Positions 7,436 to 63,482 of a stretch of 64,000 nt of DNA are shown here, one piece after another. This DNA is from Roseomonas sp. (lineage in GTDB: Bacteria > Pseudomonadota > Alphaproteobacteria > Acetobacterales > Acetobacteraceae), in NCBI GenBank assembly GCA_020249505.1, contig JADCFN010000033.1:62001-126000 (forward strand), given 5' to 3'. Positions within the stretch are counted from its first letter, which is position 1; every line of letters begins with the position of its first letter. The notes under the pieces are model-generated. The model did not search any database. It was not told where the DNA came from and worked only from the letters and a program-made list of their open reading frames with translations. Made by a program: the position numbers and the translations under genes.

Positions 7436-8655
7436 TGCAGCCCGCGCAGCGCCTGATCATCAGCTTCGCCTCGGTTGGGCATTTTTTGCATCATGTGCTG
7501 ACGGGCTTGTTCCTGACGCTTGCCGTGATTTTGGAAGCCATTTGGCAAAGACCCTATGCGGAAATCATCGCGCTTTGGACGCTTGGCGCCGCCATGATCG
7601 GCGTTGGCGCACCGCTGGCCGGTTGGCTCGCGGATCGCTTTGGCCATGCGCGCATGATGACGGTGTTTTTCCTGGGTATTGGCTTCGCTTCCATCATTGC
7701 CGGAACAGTGACCGATAGTGCGGAAATGGGCCTCGCACTGGCGCTGCTCGGTGGCTTTGGTGCGATTTATCATCCGGTGGCACTCGCTTGGGTTTCCATG
7801 ACCGCGCCGCCTGATGCGCGTGGGCGGCTGATGGGGATTTTGGGCATTGCGGGCAGTATTGGCGTGGCCTGCGCTGCCGTTATCGCCGGCGGGCTGGCAG
7901 AGATTGCCGGCTGGCGCATGGCGATGATTATTCCTGGCATGATCACCATCATCGCGGGGCTTGCGCTGCTGTTTTGCCTGATCACAGGGCGCGTGGCCGC
8001 CAGCAATCACCAGCCTGGGCAGGAAGCGGCACAGGCTGTGGCGGCTGAGGCCGCGCGCATTCCCTGGGGCGTGCTGATCGTGCTCGCCATCACCTTCATG
8101 CTGGGGTCCATCGCCTACACTGCCTATTCCACCGCGCTGCCGAAATGGCTGAGTGATATGCTGCTGCTTGACTCCACCAGGGCGGCGCAGCTTGGCCTGA
8201 TTGTGGGTGCGGTCATGTTGATGGGCAGCGCCGGGCAATTGATTGGCGGGCGGCTTGCGGATCGCATGCCGATGAAGGCGCTGTATGTCGCGACTTTCAT
8301 GATCAAGCTGCCCTTGATGATCCTGGCCGCCTGGTTTGGCGGCGCCTGGGCGCTGCTGGTCGCGGTGGTGATTGGCTTTATGTTTGATTTCGCAGCACCG
8401 GTCGAAAACCTGTTGCTGGCGCGTTATTCATCCGGCAGGCGGCGTGGCCTGGCTTTCGGGCTGAAATTTGCCATGGGGTTTGTCGCGGCACCGCTGGGGG
8501 TGAACCTGGTCGCCTGGGCCTATGGCGATGCTGCGGGCGGCGCGCCGGCGCTGTTTCTGACTCTGGCTGTTCTTGGGTTGGTGATGCTTTTCGCCGCCAT
8601 GGCTTTGCCGCGTGATGCGGGCGCACGTACGGCACCAAGGGCGGTGCCAGCCTAG
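7435..8655 (+). CDS. MFS transporter
   Basis: A 406-residue membrane protein with about 12 hydrophobic segments and a loop of the major facilitator type between segments 2 and 3 (GWLADRFGHARMM, residues 62-74), repeated in the second half as GGRLADRMPMKALY. It begins at ATG 7435, overlapping the glutathione reductase stop by one base (TGATG). A central cytoplasmic loop rich in Ala/Gln (about residues 185-205) splits two six-helix halves. The substrate is not deducible; the operon suggests a carboxylate or a thiol-reactive compound. Confidence 0.85.
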   Translation: MQPAQRLIISFASVGHFLHHVLTGLFLTLAVILEAIWQRPYAEIIALWTLGAAMIGVGAPLAGWLADRFGHARMMTVFFLGIGFASIIAGTVTDSAEMGLALALLGGFGAIYHPVALAWVSMTAPPDARGRLMGILGIAGSIGVACAAVIAGGLAEIAGWRMAMIIPGMITIIAGLALLFCLITGRVAASNHQPGQEAAQAVAAEAARIPWGVLIVLAITFMLGSIAYTAYSTALPKWLSDMLLLDSTRAAQLGLIVGAVMLMGSAGQLIGGRLADRMPMKALYVATFMIKLPLMILAAWFGGAWALLVAVVIGFMFDFAAPVENLLLARYSSGRRRGLAFGLKFAMGFVAAPLGVNLVAWAYGDAAGGAPALFLTLAVLGLVMLFAAMALPRDAGARTAPRAVPA

Positions 8656-9126
8656 GGCTTCCACCACATCGCCAAGCCGTTCCAATCCGGTCACCCTGCC
8701 GGAGCTGGGGGATATTGTGGAAACCTGAAGCGCGACCGCGCTTGGCATTAGCACCCTGGACCTGCGAAGAATTACTCGGCTGATAGCAGGTCAGGAAAAG
8801 CGTAAAGCCCGGCAGGCAGCATGCAATCAGCGCGTCAATCAGGCTGGAAGACGTTCCTAGGTTCTCCGAGCGCGCCATGCCTGGATGAGTAGAGCGCGAA
8901 AAGCGCGGAGGCAAATCGTGATGCAAAATGGCGCCGAGCAATGGTTCGGGCGCGGGTGAAGCCGGGCTGGTACCATGAAATAGCCCTCACCTTCGGTCAG
9001 AGCTGCGGTGGTATCTGGGATATGCTTCCCGCGGCCAAAATCAAGCAGCACATATCCGCAGAGACTGCGGCAGCCCTGACACAAGGTCCGCTTCTGGCGT
9101 CCTGACACGCCACCAGAAACCGCCTG
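8656..9126. other. Gene-free stretch, possibly degenerate sequence
   Basis: About 470 bases between the MFS transporter and the first copy of the duplicated block hold no convincing gene. Both strands contain short open frames interrupted by stops. On the minus strand around 8660-8740 a stretch reads like an amphipathic helix (GLERLGDVVEALG), and on the plus strand around 8735-8800 another reads LRRITRLIAGQEKRKARQA; neither could be assigned to a family. The rightmost part (from about 9127) starts the direct repeat. I read the stretch as decayed coding DNA or long spacer. Confidence 0.4.
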
Positions 9127-9171
9127 AAAACAATGAGTTAGAAAATTTTTGCGTTCCGCGTCACTTTCTGC

Positions 9172-9200
9172 TTGCCAATTTGTTCTTGTTTTGTTCATCT
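9172..9200 (+). promoter_or_regulatory. SOS promoter with LexA box, copy 1
   Basis: A candidate -35 (TTGCCA, 9172-9177) is followed after 17 bases by a weak -10 (TCATCT, 9195-9200). Between and overlapping them sits GTTCTTGTTTTGTTC (9182-9196), a perfect match to the alphaproteobacterial LexA operator GTTC-N7-GTTC. The gene's ATG is only 11 bases after the box and there is no Shine-Dalgarno sequence. Transcription would therefore begin at or just before the start codon, giving a leaderless message. Confidence 0.8.
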
Positions 9201-9207
9201 ACTCCCT

Positions 9208-9387
9208 ATGAGCAGCACCCTTTACCAAGACCCCTCCCTGATCATCCCGCAACGCCCAGTGCGCGTGCGCTTTCGGCCGCGCCGCGCAGGGTTTGAGCAG
9301 GCACGCAGCGCCATGCGCGATTTTACGCTTTTGCTGGCGCTTGCCTGGGGCGCGGCCGAGGTGGCGCTATGGTTGAGCGGGGGCTGA
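9208..9387 (+). CDS. SOS-regulated 59-aa membrane micro-protein, copy 1
   Basis: A 59-residue protein with no family I recognise. Residues 1-38 are polar and strongly basic (QRPVRVRFRPRRAGFEQARS) and residues 40-57 form one hydrophobic helix (LLLALAWGAAEVALWL), ending in SGG, so it should sit in the inner membrane with a cytoplasmic N-terminal segment. The LexA-box promoter ends 11 bases upstream and the start is probably leaderless. It differs from copy 2 (11254-11433) at 9 of 180 bases, 7 silent, the two changes being Arg24His and Ala31Val as read from copy 1 to 2. Damage-inducible one-helix peptides include SidA of Caulobacter (division inhibitor) and TisB of E. coli (membrane toxin); a similar role is inference. 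Longer in-frame reading from 9172 would run through the promoter and is rejected. Confidence 0.8.
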   Translation: MSSTLYQDPSLIIPQRPVRVRFRPRRAGFEQARSAMRDFTLLLALAWGAAEVALWLSGG

Positions 9388-9447
9388 GCCCTTACGCCTG
9401 CGCGGCTTCCTGGCTTGAAACCGTCTTTGGGCTAGCATCGCGCCCAA

Positions 9448-9891
9448 TCAATCCCGCGCGGCGTCGAGATGCGCGCGCAGCCGCCTGAGGTGCGGTAGAA
9501 TTTCGGCGATTTCAGCCTCCGACAGCACACCCCCGATGGCGGCCATCTGCGGCCCAACAGCGGCAATCGCGCGTTCACGCATGGCGCGCCCGGCATCGGT
9601 CAGAAAAACGCGTTTGCCCCGCCCATCCTTTGGGTCGGCTTCCACCCGGATCAGGCCGCGTGCTTCCAGCCGGTGCAGGGTATTGGTCATCGCTGCCTTG
9701 GCCGTCTGAAAAGCGCGCGCCAGGGCGCCCGGCGACGCGCCATCCCCGCGCCGTACCAGGTGATTGAGCACGGCGAAATGCGGCTGCCGGAGCCGATCCG
9801 GCAGCGCGCGTTCCAGGGTATTGCGGGCCAATTGCTCAATGATCGCGATCTCATTGAGCAATTGGAAGGTGGGCGGTTCGGTGGGGGTCAC
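9448..9891 (-). CDS. MarR family transcriptional regulator
   Basis: A 147-residue winged-helix regulator of the MarR family. The DNA-binding core is at about residues 50-105: SPGALARAFQTAKAAMTNTLHRLEARGLIRVEADPKDGRGKRVFLTDAG, with the wing's DxRGKR turn. It starts at a GTG inside the stop of the oxidoreductase upstream (GTGA overlap), so both are one transcript. MarR proteins usually repress their own operon and respond to small phenolic or electrophilic compounds. The palindromes at 11056-11089 in front of the operon are the likely operator. Confidence 0.9.
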   Translation of the reverse strand: MTPTEPPTFQLLNEIAIIEQLARNTLERALPDRLRQPHFAVLNHLVRRGDGASPGALARAFQTAKAAMTNTLHRLEARGLIRVEADPKDGRGKRVFLTDAGRAMRERAIAAVGPQMAAIGGVLSEAEIAEILPHLRRLRAHLDAARD

Positions 9892-11018
9892 CCGCGCAGT
9901 ATACGCGATTCCGCTGGCCAGCGTAGAGCGGTGCGAATGCCCGGCGATGCCGGATGGCCAAGCCGCCCAAACATTTGCAGCCTCTCGCCCGAAGCCACAC
10001 CCGTCGCGCGGCGTATCGCCTCATGCAACGGCTCCATTTCCGGAAATTCCTGTAGCGCTTGGCTCAATGGCTGGATGCCAAGGCCGGCGGCATTGGCCGC
10101 CAGATCAAGCCGAAGCCAGTCGCGCCCCGCCTCAAGCTGCGCCACGCGCCCATTGCCCGGTGTCGAGGTCCAGACAAAGCAGGGCGAAGCGGCAATGACC
10201 GAAAGCTGCGCTTGCATCATCATCCCGAAGGCCTGGCCGTTGCGGTCCATGAAGGCGGCGCGGGTCAACTGCCCGCGGGCAACCATTTCTTCAACCTGCG
10301 GCCCGCCAATGCCGATCCCATCCGGGTTCGCCGCCATCTCGGCCCGGCCGAGGCGAAACAGGTCCACACTTTCCTGCAACGTATGCGGCGTGCCGGCCTC
10401 CACCCGGAAGCCCTCCTGCGCGATATCACGCAATGCCGCGACCCGCGCCGGGTCGGTCGTGAAGCCGAAGCGCTTCGGATCAGCAAGCGCGGCGGCGAGC
10501 GGCGCCGGGTCCGGAACCCGCGCCATATCATAGGGCTGCTTGGCCGAACGGCGCGTGGGCACCGCGGCAAAGAGCGGATCGCGCATACCCGCGCCGGGGC
10601 GGAGCGTGATTGCCGCGATTGGCCGCTGATCAAGCCGCCGTCCCGGCAGCCCCTCGGGGAAGAGGGCGATATCGGCGCCGATGCCTTCCTGCGCCAGCGC
10701 CATCCGATAAAGCTCAAGGAAACCGCCAAGGCCGATCACGATCTGCCGATCAAAGGGGTCGGTTTCGGGCAGGCGGCGATCGAGGTCGCAACGGAGCAAC
10801 ACGCGATCAGCGCCCGCCAACTGCACCAGCCAGGGTTGCCGATTATGCGGGTTTGGGGCGCGAATGGCGTGGCCGGCGGCACGGATGCGCGGATCGGCAT
10901 GGCGCGTTGCCGGATCGGCTTCAGGTGCGGGCTGGGCTTTCGCCATGCGCAGCATCCCTTCCGACAGGACAAGCATGGCGCCGGCGGCGGTGAGGATTTG
11001 GCGTCTTTGGATTGTCAT
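9888..11018 (-). CDS. Acg-type nitroreductase-family protein with Tat-like signal
   Basis: A 376-residue protein of the nitroreductase (FMN-binding) superfamily, closest in layout to the Acg family. The N-terminus MTIQRRQILTAAGAMLVLSEG has a twin-arginine followed by a hydrophobic stretch, suggesting Tat export. APNPHNRQPWLVQL near residue 55 is the family's FMN-contacting N-x-Q-PW motif; RRSAKQPYDMA is the start of a second subdomain, as in duplicated nitroreductase folds. The ATG at 11018 is preceded by a promoter with TATACT at 11080-11075; longer in-frame starts would run through that promoter. It forms an operon with the MarR gene. The role may be redox detoxification, but the substrate is unknown. 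Confidence 0.8.
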   Translation of the reverse strand: MTIQRRQILTAAGAMLVLSEGMLRMAKAQPAPEADPATRHADPRIRAAGHAIRAPNPHNRQPWLVQLAGADRVLLRCDLDRRLPETDPFDRQIVIGLGGFLELYRMALAQEGIGADIALFPEGLPGRRLDQRPIAAITLRPGAGMRDPLFAAVPTRRSAKQPYDMARVPDPAPLAAALADPKRFGFTTDPARVAALRDIAQEGFRVEAGTPHTLQESVDLFRLGRAEMAANPDGIGIGGPQVEEMVARGQLTRAAFMDRNGQAFGMMMQAQLSVIAASPCFVWTSTPGNGRVAQLEAGRDWLRLDLAANAAGLGIQPLSQALQEFPEMEPLHEAIRRATGVASGERLQMFGRLGHPASPGIRTALRWPAESRILRG

Positions 11019-11055
11019 GGGGCGAGAGGCCTTTTGGAGTGGCGCGAACGGTATT

Positions 11056-11089
11056 GTTCGATTTCGAACTAAGTAGTATAACATCGAAC
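11056..11089 (-). promoter_or_regulatory. Promoter and palindromic operator of the oxidoreductase-MarR operon
   Basis: GTTCGATTTCGAAC (11056-11069) is a 14-bp palindrome with one central mismatch pair, and its left half pairs again with ATCGAAC at 11083-11089. On the minus strand a TATACT -10 element (11080-11075) lies between these half-sites, so a bound dimer would block RNA polymerase. A third half-site ATCGAAC is at 11135-11141. The arrangement fits autoregulation by the co-transcribed MarR protein. Confidence 0.6.
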
Positions 11090-11217
11090 CAAATGCAAGA
11101 TGAAAACACGCTGCAGGGACCAGAGGCGTGGCCGATCGAACCAAGCGCCAGCACATGCCCTAAAAATACATAAAAACAATAGGTTAAAAAATTTTCGCGC
11201 CCCGCATGGTTTTTCGC

Positions 11218-11246
11218 TTGCCAAATTGTTCTTGTTTTGTTCTTAT
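11218..11246 (+). promoter_or_regulatory. SOS promoter with LexA box, copy 2
   Basis: TTGCCA (-35, 11218-11223), a 17-base spacer and TCTTAT (-10, 11241-11246) frame a perfect GTTC-N7-GTTC LexA box at 11228-11242. The predicted transcription start falls within a base or two of the ATG at 11254, and no ribosome site is present, again implying a leaderless message. The spacer core TTGTTTT of the box is identical in both copies although surrounding bases have drifted. Confidence 0.82.
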
Positions 11247-11253
11247 CTTCCAC

Positions 11254-11433
11254 ATGAGCAGCACCCTTTACCAAGACCCCTCCCTCATCATCCCACAACG
11301 CCCGGTGCGCGTGCGCTTTCGGCCGCACCGCGCAGGGTTTGAGCAGGTACGCAGCGCCATGCGCGATTTCACGCTTTTGCTGGCGCTTGCCTGGGGCGCG
11401 GCGGAAGTGGCGCTCTGGTTGAGCGGGGGCTGA
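11254..11433 (+). CDS. SOS-regulated 59-aa membrane micro-protein, copy 2
   Basis: A 59-residue basic protein with one C-terminal transmembrane helix (about residues 40-57), 57 of 59 residues identical to copy 1 at 9208. His24 and Val31 replace Arg and Ala. Seven of nine base differences between the copies are silent, which is the pattern expected if both are translated and selected. The gene is convergent with the DsbA-family gene, four bases apart at the stops. No homologue is recognised; the regulation and shape suggest a damage-induced membrane peptide. Confidence 0.82.
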   Translation: MSSTLYQDPSLIIPQRPVRVRFRPHRAGFEQVRSAMRDFTLLLALAWGAAEVALWLSGG

Positions 11434-11437
11434 GCCC

Positions 11438-12130
11438 TTACCCCTGCGCGGCTTCCTTGGCCCGTTCGCGCAAAATCGCGACGGCCCGGCGCAGCCCATC
11501 GGCGATATTCTCGGGCGGCATGGCGCCGGAGAACAGCAAATGCCGATCCAGCACAAAGGATGGCACGCCCGATATCCCGGCGCCGCGATAGCCCTCATCC
11601 TCGGCCAATACCTCATGCCGCCCGGCATCGCCGGCGCTGAAGGCGGCCAGGCTTTCCGCTGACATGCCTGCCGCCGCACCCAAGGCGGTAAGTGTCCCGA
11701 TATCGCCGATATCCCGGCCCCCCTGGAAATAGGCCTGGAAGATAGCCTCGGCCACCTCGCGCTGCCGGCCATCCACACCCGCCAGCCGGATCAGCCGGTG
11801 CGCTTCCAAGGTATTGGGCGTGCGCGTCATCAGATCATGGCGAAAATCGAGCCCGGCGATCCGCCCGGCATCGGCCACGCGGCGGTCCAATTCCTGGGAT
11901 TTTTCGAGCGATCCGAATTTGGCGCTGCGATATTCCCGCCGATCCACGCCTTCCGCCGGCATTTCCGGGTTTAATTGGAAGGGCCGGAAACGGACTTTGA
12001 ACATCAGCCCCTCCTCCGAAAGCATCTCCAAAGCCGCATCCAGATTGCGCTTGCCGATCCAGCACCAGGGGCAAATCGCGTCCGAAATCACATCCAGAGT
12101 GCCGGCATTGGCTTCAGTGGCGCTGTCCAT
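11438..12130 (-). CDS. DsbA family oxidoreductase (FrnE-like)
   Basis: A 230-residue thioredoxin-fold protein of the DsbA/FrnE group. It has the redox motif CPWC near residue 20 (ISDAICPWCWIGK), the helical insert between about 60 and 170, and the cis-proline loop GISGVPSFVLDRHLLFSGA near 185-200. There is no signal peptide, so it acts in the cytoplasm, probably as a thiol-disulfide enzyme; 2-hydroxychromene-2-carboxylate isomerases share the fold but usually lack CxxC. The ATG at 12130 has AGGAGGAAG just upstream; the 116 upstream in-frame codons are glycine-rich and belong to the opposite strand. Confidence 0.9.
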   Translation of the reverse strand: MDSATEANAGTLDVISDAICPWCWIGKRNLDAALEMLSEEGLMFKVRFRPFQLNPEMPAEGVDRREYRSAKFGSLEKSQELDRRVADAGRIAGLDFRHDLMTRTPNTLEAHRLIRLAGVDGRQREVAEAIFQAYFQGGRDIGDIGTLTALGAAAGMSAESLAAFSAGDAGRHEVLAEDEGYRGAGISGVPSFVLDRHLLFSGAMPPENIADGLRRAVAILRERAKEAAQG

Positions 12131-61985: not shown

Positions 61986-63482
61986 ATGACGGAGGCGGTG
62001 AATTTACGCGAAAGGGTGAAGGAACCGCCTTCGCCATTATTGGTGGAAAGCTATTATCGCGGGTCAGTCGCGCGGGCGCAGCATTATGTCTTTCAGCATG
62101 AGATGTGGGTGCATCTGGCGCATGGGCTGATGCTGGAACGCCAAGGCATCATCGCCCGCGATGCCATGGCGCAAATCCTGCCGGAAATTATTACCATGGC
62201 TGATGCCGGGCCGGATGCGGTGCCGGTCGACTACCGGCAGGAAGATCTCTATTCCTATGTCGAGAAACTGATCATCCAAAAACTCGGCCCCGATATTGGC
62301 GGGCGGCTGCATACTGGGCGCAGCCGGAATGATCTGAACGCAACCACCTGGCGCATGGCGTTGCGCACGGAATTGCTCGCGGTGCTGGGGCTGCTCGCTG
62401 ATCTGCGGCAGATAATGCTTGCGCTGGCCGAGGAACATATCGCGGCAGTCATGCCCGGCTATACGCATGGCCAGCATGCGCAGCCCATTACTTTTGGCTA
62501 TTGGTTGGCCTCGGCGGCGGATGCGCTGGCGCGTGACCATGAAAGGCTGATGGGCGCGCTGGCGCATTGTGATCTTTGTCCCCTGGGCGCGGGCGCACTT
62601 TCCACCACGGCCTTCCCGCTTGATCGCGCGTGGGTCGCCGATGCGCTGGGTTTCGCCGCGCCGTTGGAGCTTGCCTATGACGCGGTGTCGTCGCGCGATG
62701 ATGCGCTGGAAGCGGCATCCGCCATGGCGGTGATGATGACGCTGCTGTCGCGCCTTGCGACCGATCTGCAAAATTGGGGCAGTTGGGAATATGGTTTTGT
62801 CGAATTGGCGGATCGCCATTCGGCGGTTTCCAGCATCATGCCTCAGAAGAAAAACCCTGTGGCGCTGGAACATTTGAAGGCAGCGGCAGCAATGGTGCAG
62901 GGCGCGCATCATGCCGCCATGGCCTGCACCAAAAACACTTCCTTCGCTGATGTGAATGATGCGGTGACGGCGGTGAATGAACCTGTGCTGGATGCAGCAC
63001 TTCGCAGCCGGCGCATCCTGGCCCTGTTTCAGGAAGTGATGCAGGGCATCAGCCTGAACAAGGCCCGCATGGAAAATGCAGCGCGTGAGGGTTTTGGCTC
63101 GGCCACCGAATTGGCCGATGTGATTGTGCGCGAAACCGGGCTGAGTTTCCGCATGGCGCATAACGTCGTTGCCATTGTTGTGCGCGATGCCTTGGCTGAG
63201 GGCCGCACGGCGGAAAGCATTTCAAGCGTGGCATTGGATGAGGCTGCTCAGCTGCTGTTCGGCAAAGCCTTGCATATTCCAGCCGCGAAGCTCCGCGCCG
63301 CACTTGATCCGGCAGAAAACCTGATCGGGCGCAGCGTACAAGGCGGCCCGGCACCGACCGCCATGGCAGCGCTGATAGCGCGCCGGCGCGATAGCCTGGC
63401 GCAGGATCGTGCGACCATTACCGCCATCAGTCAGCGCATTGCAGATGCAAGGGCGGCGTGTTGGACAGAGGCGCAGGCATAG
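61986..63482 (+). CDS. Argininosuccinate lyase family protein
   Basis: A 498-residue member of the fumarase/aspartase superfamily, with the argininosuccinate-lyase arrangement: GGRLHTGRSRNDLNATTWRMALR (about residues 102-124), MPGYTHGQHAQPITFGYWL near 157 and the signature SSIMPQKKNP near 282-291. No arginine-synthesis gene is close; instead it lies between a thiolase and a Bug receptor. A catabolic lyase acting on an N-substituted aspartate-like compound is plausible. ATG 61986 has GAGAGAGG upstream; the TTG at 61980 is in frame. Confidence 0.85.
   Translation: MTEAVNLRERVKEPPSPLLVESYYRGSVARAQHYVFQHEMWVHLAHGLMLERQGIIARDAMAQILPEIITMADAGPDAVPVDYRQEDLYSYVEKLIIQKLGPDIGGRLHTGRSRNDLNATTWRMALRTELLAVLGLLADLRQIMLALAEEHIAAVMPGYTHGQHAQPITFGYWLASAADALARDHERLMGALAHCDLCPLGAGALSTTAFPLDRAWVADALGFAAPLELAYDAVSSRDDALEAASAMAVMMTLLSRLATDLQNWGSWEYGFVELADRHSAVSSIMPQKKNPVALEHLKAAAAMVQGAHHAAMACTKNTSFADVNDAVTAVNEPVLDAALRSRRILALFQEVMQGISLNKARMENAAREGFGSATELADVIVRETGLSFRMAHNVVAIVVRDALAEGRTAESISSVALDEAAQLLFGKALHIPAAKLRAALDPAENLIGRSVQGGPAPTAMAALIARRRDSLAQDRATITAISQRIADARAACWTEAQA

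Follow-up and report, generated by a model that had tools for sequence, protein, structure and literature searches.

Does a small membrane protein encoded directly behind a LexA operator belong to the SOS response of Roseomonas, and what might it do in a cell with damaged DNA? The question is raised by a 64,000-nucleotide stretch (positions 62,001 to 126,000 of contig JADCFN010000033.1, assembly GCA_020249505.1; hereafter the window) from a Roseomonas sp. of the family Acetobacteraceae with a genome of 4.06 Mb, for which an initial annotation had proposed an SOS-type promoter driving a protein of 59 amino acids with a single membrane helix.

A duplicated small gene and its promoter

The gene is found twice in the window, in a repeat of 285 nt with 90% identity between its copies. 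The features of both copies are as follows:

9127..9411, + strand: duplicated unit, reference copy
9172..9177, + strand: -35 element TTGCCA, copy 1 (the element begins with TTG in 37/38 genus copies and with TTA in L014)
9182..9196, + strand: LexA box GTTC-N7-GTTC, GTTCTTGTTTTGTTC, copy 1
9195..9200, + strand: -10 hexamer position, copy 1, TCATCT, at 17 nt spacing
9208..9387, + strand: 59-aa small membrane protein, copy 1, with ATG start (ORF; pN/pS about 0.2 in its own subclade)
11173..11457, + strand: duplicated unit, second copy (90%)
11218..11223, + strand: -35 element TTGCCA, copy 2
11228..11242, + strand: LexA box, GTTCTTGTTTTGTTC, copy 2
11241..11246, + strand: -10 hexamer TCTTAT, copy 2, the commonest in the genus
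11254..11433, + strand: 59-aa small membrane protein, copy 2 (57/59 residues identical to copy 1)

The open reading frame of copy 1 translates into MSSTLYQDPSLIIPQRPVRVRFRPRRAGFEQARSAMRDFTLLLALAWGAAEVALWLSGG (59 aa), from which copy 2 differs in two residues (97% identity; pN 0.015, pS 0.158). The perfect LexA box that the initial annotation had placed in the promoter is present as an exact GTTC-N7-GTTC at 9182-9196, and the remaining elements also lie where they had been described: TTGCCA at 9172, a spacer of 17 bases, TCATCT at 9195 and, 11 nt past the box, the ATG at 9208, with no purine-rich ribosome site between box and start codon. In both window copies the ATG begins 7 nt after the -10 position; the transcription start is predicted at or next to the ATG, and the mRNA is probably leaderless. 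A strict sigma-70 scan of 9100-9500 passed neither a consensus promoter nor a terminator. TCTTAT occupies the -10 position in 30/38 genus copies, copy 2 included, and TCATCT is found among these 38 in copy 1 only, which is why copy 2 may be the stronger gene of the two.

The two copies are separated by a MarR-type gene (Pfam) and a long, presumably nitroreductase-like frame; copy 2 is convergent with a DsbA-like gene, a neighbour that recurs, judging by eye, at several other loci of the genus. Copies of the small gene enclose other genes not only in the window (9127-11457), but also in two further loci (L043, L050), where the genes between the copies presumably include alpha/beta-hydrolase-like, NAD(P)-binding and TetR-like ones in addition, and this gene content varies among relatives. 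Upstream of copy 1, the stretch 8656-9120 is without a convincing gene and may consist of decayed remnants. Outside the genus, the small SOS gene repeatedly has as its neighbour a gene beginning approximately NxLLRGQSNA (L082, L093, L112, L191); one 66-aa stretch of it had no match in Pfam. Among the 18 loci listed, a few of them annotated, the neighbouring genes lend no support to a role in division.

Conservation within the genus

The protein was present in 33 of 59 genomes searched (the source genome included), and all 33 are among the 35 genomes of the same genus; the two same-genus genomes without a match were G017 (98% complete, 770 contigs) and G018 (85%, 520 contigs). The gene occupies 39 places in the genus, as a single copy in 28 of the 33 gene-bearing genomes and as two or three copies in five. 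With L016 left out, as its sequence begins at the edge of a contig, 38 copies with readable upstream DNA remain. When these were recounted with the protein and not the promoter as anchor, each of the 38 carried an exact GTTC-N7-GTTC before the ATG, at a distance of 10 nt in 14 and of 11 nt in 24 copies. Two subclades can be distinguished in the genus; their mutual protein identity is 52-60%, yet box, spacing and length (57-64 aa) are kept in both. The initial annotation had staked its reading on the frame and the LexA box being kept in related genomes, and both indeed are (33/35 genus genomes, 38/38 boxes).

The small protein is under purifying selection. For 27 of the 32 distinct genus coding sequences, those of 59 aa, the mean pN/pS amounted to 0.20 (19 sequences) and 0.34 (8 sequences) in the two subclades; the 32 sequences had been gathered by a pattern requiring TTG and both GTTC halves, so that the invariance of these elements in that set is there by construction. 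Among the matches listed, protein relatives were found at eight loci, all in MAGs, assigned to Roseomonas sp. (five), an uncultured Rhodospirillales (one) and Asaia bogorensis (two).

Distribution in the Acetobacteraceae and beyond

Across 299 genomes of the family, own genus included, the promoter-first pattern TTGC-N6-GTTC-N7-GTTC-N(9-12)-ATG was found at 47 places in 44 genomes, and the reversed pattern at none. At 37 of the 47 places (35 genomes, 13 genera) it opens a small protein with the same type of C-terminal helix, the four genomes of genus g41 being divergent among these relatives; the other ten (L069, L070, L083, L084, L092, L099, L107, L108, L111, L114) were set aside, as no relative follows them. 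A numeric filter (a length of 40-90 aa and a C-terminal 17-mer that is hydrophobic) retains 60 of the 78 distinct promoter places, compared with 275 of all 13,054 ATGs in those loci, members included.

Searching by protein, a profile built from genus members only (A1) matched 19/299 family genomes, seven of the genus and 12 others; of these 12, three scored better than E 1e-4 and the others were mostly weak. A second profile (A2) of 22 diverse members, in which the majority of the diverse rows came from the promoter-first search, matched 55/299. A search for regulatory sites can thus find relatives of a small protein that a profile of near homologues misses. Two of the protein-first matches, L208 (in G212) and L210 (a second place in G117), lack the box and were rejected as chance matches. 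A further 21 genomes were recovered by the protein alone, having been missed by the promoter pattern and having given no row to A2: 16 have the exact box upstream, four (genus g40) have ATTC-N7-GTTC and one has GTTC-N6-GTTC. In the 16, the box precedes the ATG by 27-28 nt in three (two genera), by 15 nt in three and by 10-11 nt in the rest; in g40 the one-mismatch boxes lie 22-46 nt before the matched start, and upstream boxes of this kind are not rare by chance. A second GTTG-N7-GTTC about 25 nt upstream of the ATTC-N7-GTTC operator was observed in g40 (L202-L205), which suggests a drifted or double LexA site.

Taken together, both searches place the family in about 56/299 genomes and 17/102 genera, and the check proposed in the initial annotation, whether LexA boxes precede the gene in other Acetobacteraceae, came out positive from the promoter side as well as from the protein side. 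Over all fetched loci, an exact box stands before 76 of 91 distinct profile matches at E <= 1e-5, and of the 15 matches without an exact box, five are those of the variant-box genomes, two are truncated at the end of a contig or locus, and eight are secondary stretches within long frames. No family member was found in 85 of the 102 sampled genera at the given sensitivity, the profile searches having scored at most 16-55 candidates per genome, which makes absences soft; the small protein is therefore not a universal checkpoint.

Outside the family, the A1 profile returned from 385 genomes of the class only the own genome and two weak matches, and A2 from 113 class genomes the own genome only. 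A looser promoter pattern gave 42 places in 200 genomes of the order (one reversed-control match) and 17 places in 337 genomes of the class (two reversed-control matches). None of the 13 class places outside the family opens a relative, some of them resembling what we presume to be other SOS genes (MmcB-like, UmuD-like), and the extra order places (L137-L142) were likewise rejected, opening no relative.

Probable partners in the SOS regulon

The box of the small gene has company in the source genome. Boxes of its type are found 192 nt before the start of recA (C14), on the opposite strand 77 nt before the start of lexA (C89), between ssb (Pfam) and uvrA (NCBIfam), upstream of two genes that NCBIfam assigns to a PA0069-family radical SAM protein and to a ligase-associated exonuclease, beside a gyrB/parE-type gene, and 36 nt before a gene followed by another, which we label imuA-like and imuB-like from their sequences; Pfam had no match for the imuA-like gene, whose box differs from that of the small protein in one spacer base. 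These sites are from 20 fetched loci and the first loci of the genome listing, picked by eye from 63 for AT-rich spacers, and several of the inspected boxes are without an obvious SOS gene. The small gene thus has a promoter-overlapping GTTC-N7-GTTC that is common to recA and lexA and conserved in its own orthologues.

Some further sites deserve mention. The radical SAM gene at L002 (C1:51521) is preceded by GTTCTTATTTTGTTC, exactly the box that the imuA-like operon has, and in another genus (L107) the box is followed by a frame resembling a PA0069-type radical SAM gene. For each of three paralogous genes (L122, L123 and L127, on C92, C96 and C41), the opposite strand carries a LexA-type box at 57-58 nt from the gene start; Pfam had no match for the N-terminal 70 aa of two of the products, and the three may be further SOS genes of unknown kind.

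Architecture and novelty of the protein

Two parts of the protein stand out in the family, which ranges from 43 to 89 aa in length:

9238..9261, + strand: conserved I-P-P-x-P motif region in the N-terminal tail (copy 1: LIIPQRPV)
9322..9378, + strand: likely membrane part, inferred as residues 39-57 of the modelled helix 27-57, with conserved L43, W47 and E51

In the A2 alignment M1, P14 and P17 are invariant (22/22), L43 and E51 are found in 20/22 and W47 in 18/22 members; the common layout is an I-P-P-x-P-like motif in the tail, then a mostly basic linker, then a C-terminal R/Q-E-A-x-L...L...W..A-E-L.L. The four g41 members are without the helix Glu, and genus g61 has a short extra stretch after the helix. 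AlphaFold2 modelled the single chain as one helix (residues 27-57; mean pLDDT 83.6, pTM 0.46), with a block of pLDDT 92-98 over residues 31-59; a one-sided conserved face of this helix was not apparent (permutation p 0.18). The net charge before the last 22 residues lies between +1 and +7 in 21 of 22 members and is -5 in one, and the description of the product as a basic segment plus one membrane helix is thus matched by both charge and model. According to the positive-inside rule, a positive tail predicts an N-in, C-out orientation, and we infer from sequence and model that the basic N-terminal tail would be cytosolic and the C-terminal helix would cross the inner membrane.

The initial annotation had recognised no family, and Pfam and NCBIfam offered nothing convincing either, with no family above the curated cut-off for the window proteins and, for the 22 A2 members, Pfam DUF3487 as the sole match at E <= 0.1 (0.095, one member). 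A PDB profile search ended at a best E of 0.94, a PHROGs search with four proteins at 0.093, and tblastn of P0001 against a plasmid collection gave no match. In the open-licence literature, among the matches listed and as far as titles and the beginnings of abstracts go, no account of the family or of a LexA regulon in Roseomonas relatives was found. Apparently, these are undescribed one-helix SOS proteins with a conserved motif of their own, unrelated to the known ones.

What might the protein do?

General caution is advisable as to the box alone. Three perfect boxes in the window compare with 0.70 expected, a number reached in 3 of 100 shuffles, which is a weak signal, and genome-wide the 63 perfect boxes are fewer than the 181 of the reversed control, so that by itself the box proves little and leaves room for a chance ORF behind a chance box, or for a duplicated non-coding element. 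The case goes beyond chance because the exact box precedes all 38 readable genus copies and because 47 promoter-pattern places in the family stand against none for the reversed pattern; with purifying selection on the protein, and with the searches by promoter and by protein agreeing over 17 genera, conservation refutes the chance explanation, to which we leave hardly any probability. Membership of the small-protein gene in the LexA regulon is, on sequence grounds, strongly supported by the boxes in 38/38 genus copies, at 37 of the 47 promoter places (none reversed) and in 16 of the 21 genomes found by protein only, the other five having variant boxes. The same arrangement argues strongly for LexA repression, a leaderless mRNA and induction by damage: LexA, seated between -35 and -10, would keep the promoter closed until DNA damage removes it, and the 59-aa protein would then be translated from an mRNA whose 5' end would lie at the ATG or beside it.

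As to the product, LexA-controlled membrane peptides offer more than one model. A small, basic, one-helix protein behind a LexA-type operator could act in the manner of TisB or DinQ, depolarising or perturbing the inner membrane and promoting growth arrest or persistence, and DinQ is indeed described as an SOS-controlled toxic peptide of 27 aa with a single helix (PMC3567139). However, DinQ and TisB are, by the same account, repressed by antisense RNAs that target processed transcripts (PMC3567139), while the start codon of the present family is too near the promoter for a leader (ATG 10-11 nt past the box in 38/38 copies) and no antisense RNA was recognised nearby, Rfam giving no RNA match in 8600-11800, where RNAs of unknown type are possible. 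The invariant prolines of the tail and the helix Glu would also suit specific binding better than the formation of a pore, and altogether we consider a toxin of this type unlikely. Our leaning towards a regulator that binds a partner follows from the lack of a leader and of an Rfam match nearby, the conserved proline motif of the tail, and the mostly single copy per genome (28/33). Which partner this might be is a separate matter. It is common for small one-helix proteins to regulate larger proteins of the membrane, and as the present analysis singles out no partner, the target could be another inner-membrane protein unrelated to division, such as a protease, a transporter, a respiratory complex or an envelope sensor; there is no specific argument against this alternative, but among SOS-induced inhibitors, small membrane proteins blocking late steps of division are described as widespread (PMC13396833), and we find it doubtful.

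The remaining and preferred reading, an SOS-induced division checkpoint peptide working like SidA, draws on analogy, and we would give it about even chances. More weakly, the analogy suggests a division block through the septal wall synthase: the helix might dock via its conserved L, W and E on a membrane helix of this synthase, FtsW being the leading candidate, the proline motif might engage a cytosolic partner, and septation would pause until repair is done. In its fullest form, the proposal is that a fast-evolving family of leaderless, LexA-controlled microproteins serves as SOS division checkpoint in a sizeable part of the Acetobacteraceae, with an origin independent of SidA and a two-point grip formed by the cytosolic I-P-P-x-P and a helix with a buried glutamate; this we put forward tentatively, as slightly less than evenly balanced. 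The SOS division inhibitors known so far vary between lineages, and the family would provide a testable inhibitor candidate for part of a large bacterial family, whose natural variants of 43-89 aa outline the minimal working part.

Comparison with known systems

The nearest parallel is SidA of Caulobacter crescentus, described as an SOS-induced inner-membrane protein of 29 aa that binds FtsW (PMC4211646), in an organism whose SOS motif is given as GTTCN7GTTC and in which loss of LexA is reported to cause filamentation through SidA (PMC12700426). Both systems have the alphaproteobacterial GTTC-N7-GTTC box and a small inner-membrane protein in common, but the present family is longer (43-89 aa) and is set apart from SidA, as that protein is described, by its conserved proline motif and helix Glu; in the class samples searched, no relative of the family was found outside the Acetobacteraceae. 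It would correspond to SidA in function, though probably not in descent. DidA, also of Caulobacter, which is described as a protein of 71 aa with one helix that binds FtsN (PMC4211646), resembles the family in its length and single predicted helix as far as that description goes, but DidA is SOS-independent, whereas the family lies behind LexA boxes.

TisB and DinQ of E. coli are likewise LexA-controlled single-helix peptides. The translation of TisB is controlled by an untranslated 5' leader, a trait of type I toxin-antitoxin systems, whereas in the present family the ATG follows the box by 10-11 nt in 38/38 copies, at the predicted start point, leaving no such leader; the lack of an Rfam antisense RNA and the conserved proline motif are further differences.

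SosA of S. aureus, YneA of B. subtilis and ChiZ of M. tuberculosis are described as SOS-linked membrane proteins acting on late steps of division (PMC13396833), and in this they resemble what is proposed here. They belong to different phyla, however, and the present family has no room for a LysM domain and has its conserved motif in the predicted cytosolic tail. The helix of YneA is reported to bind TM7 of FtsW, where SosA, ChiZ and SidA are likewise placed by AlphaFold 3 models of less than high confidence (PMC13396833). Should the family from Acetobacteraceae bind FtsW, the FtsW-targeting strategy that has been proposed for SidA, SosA, ChiZ and YneA would gain a further, independent example, and the role of the conserved cytosolic proline motif would become an additional question.
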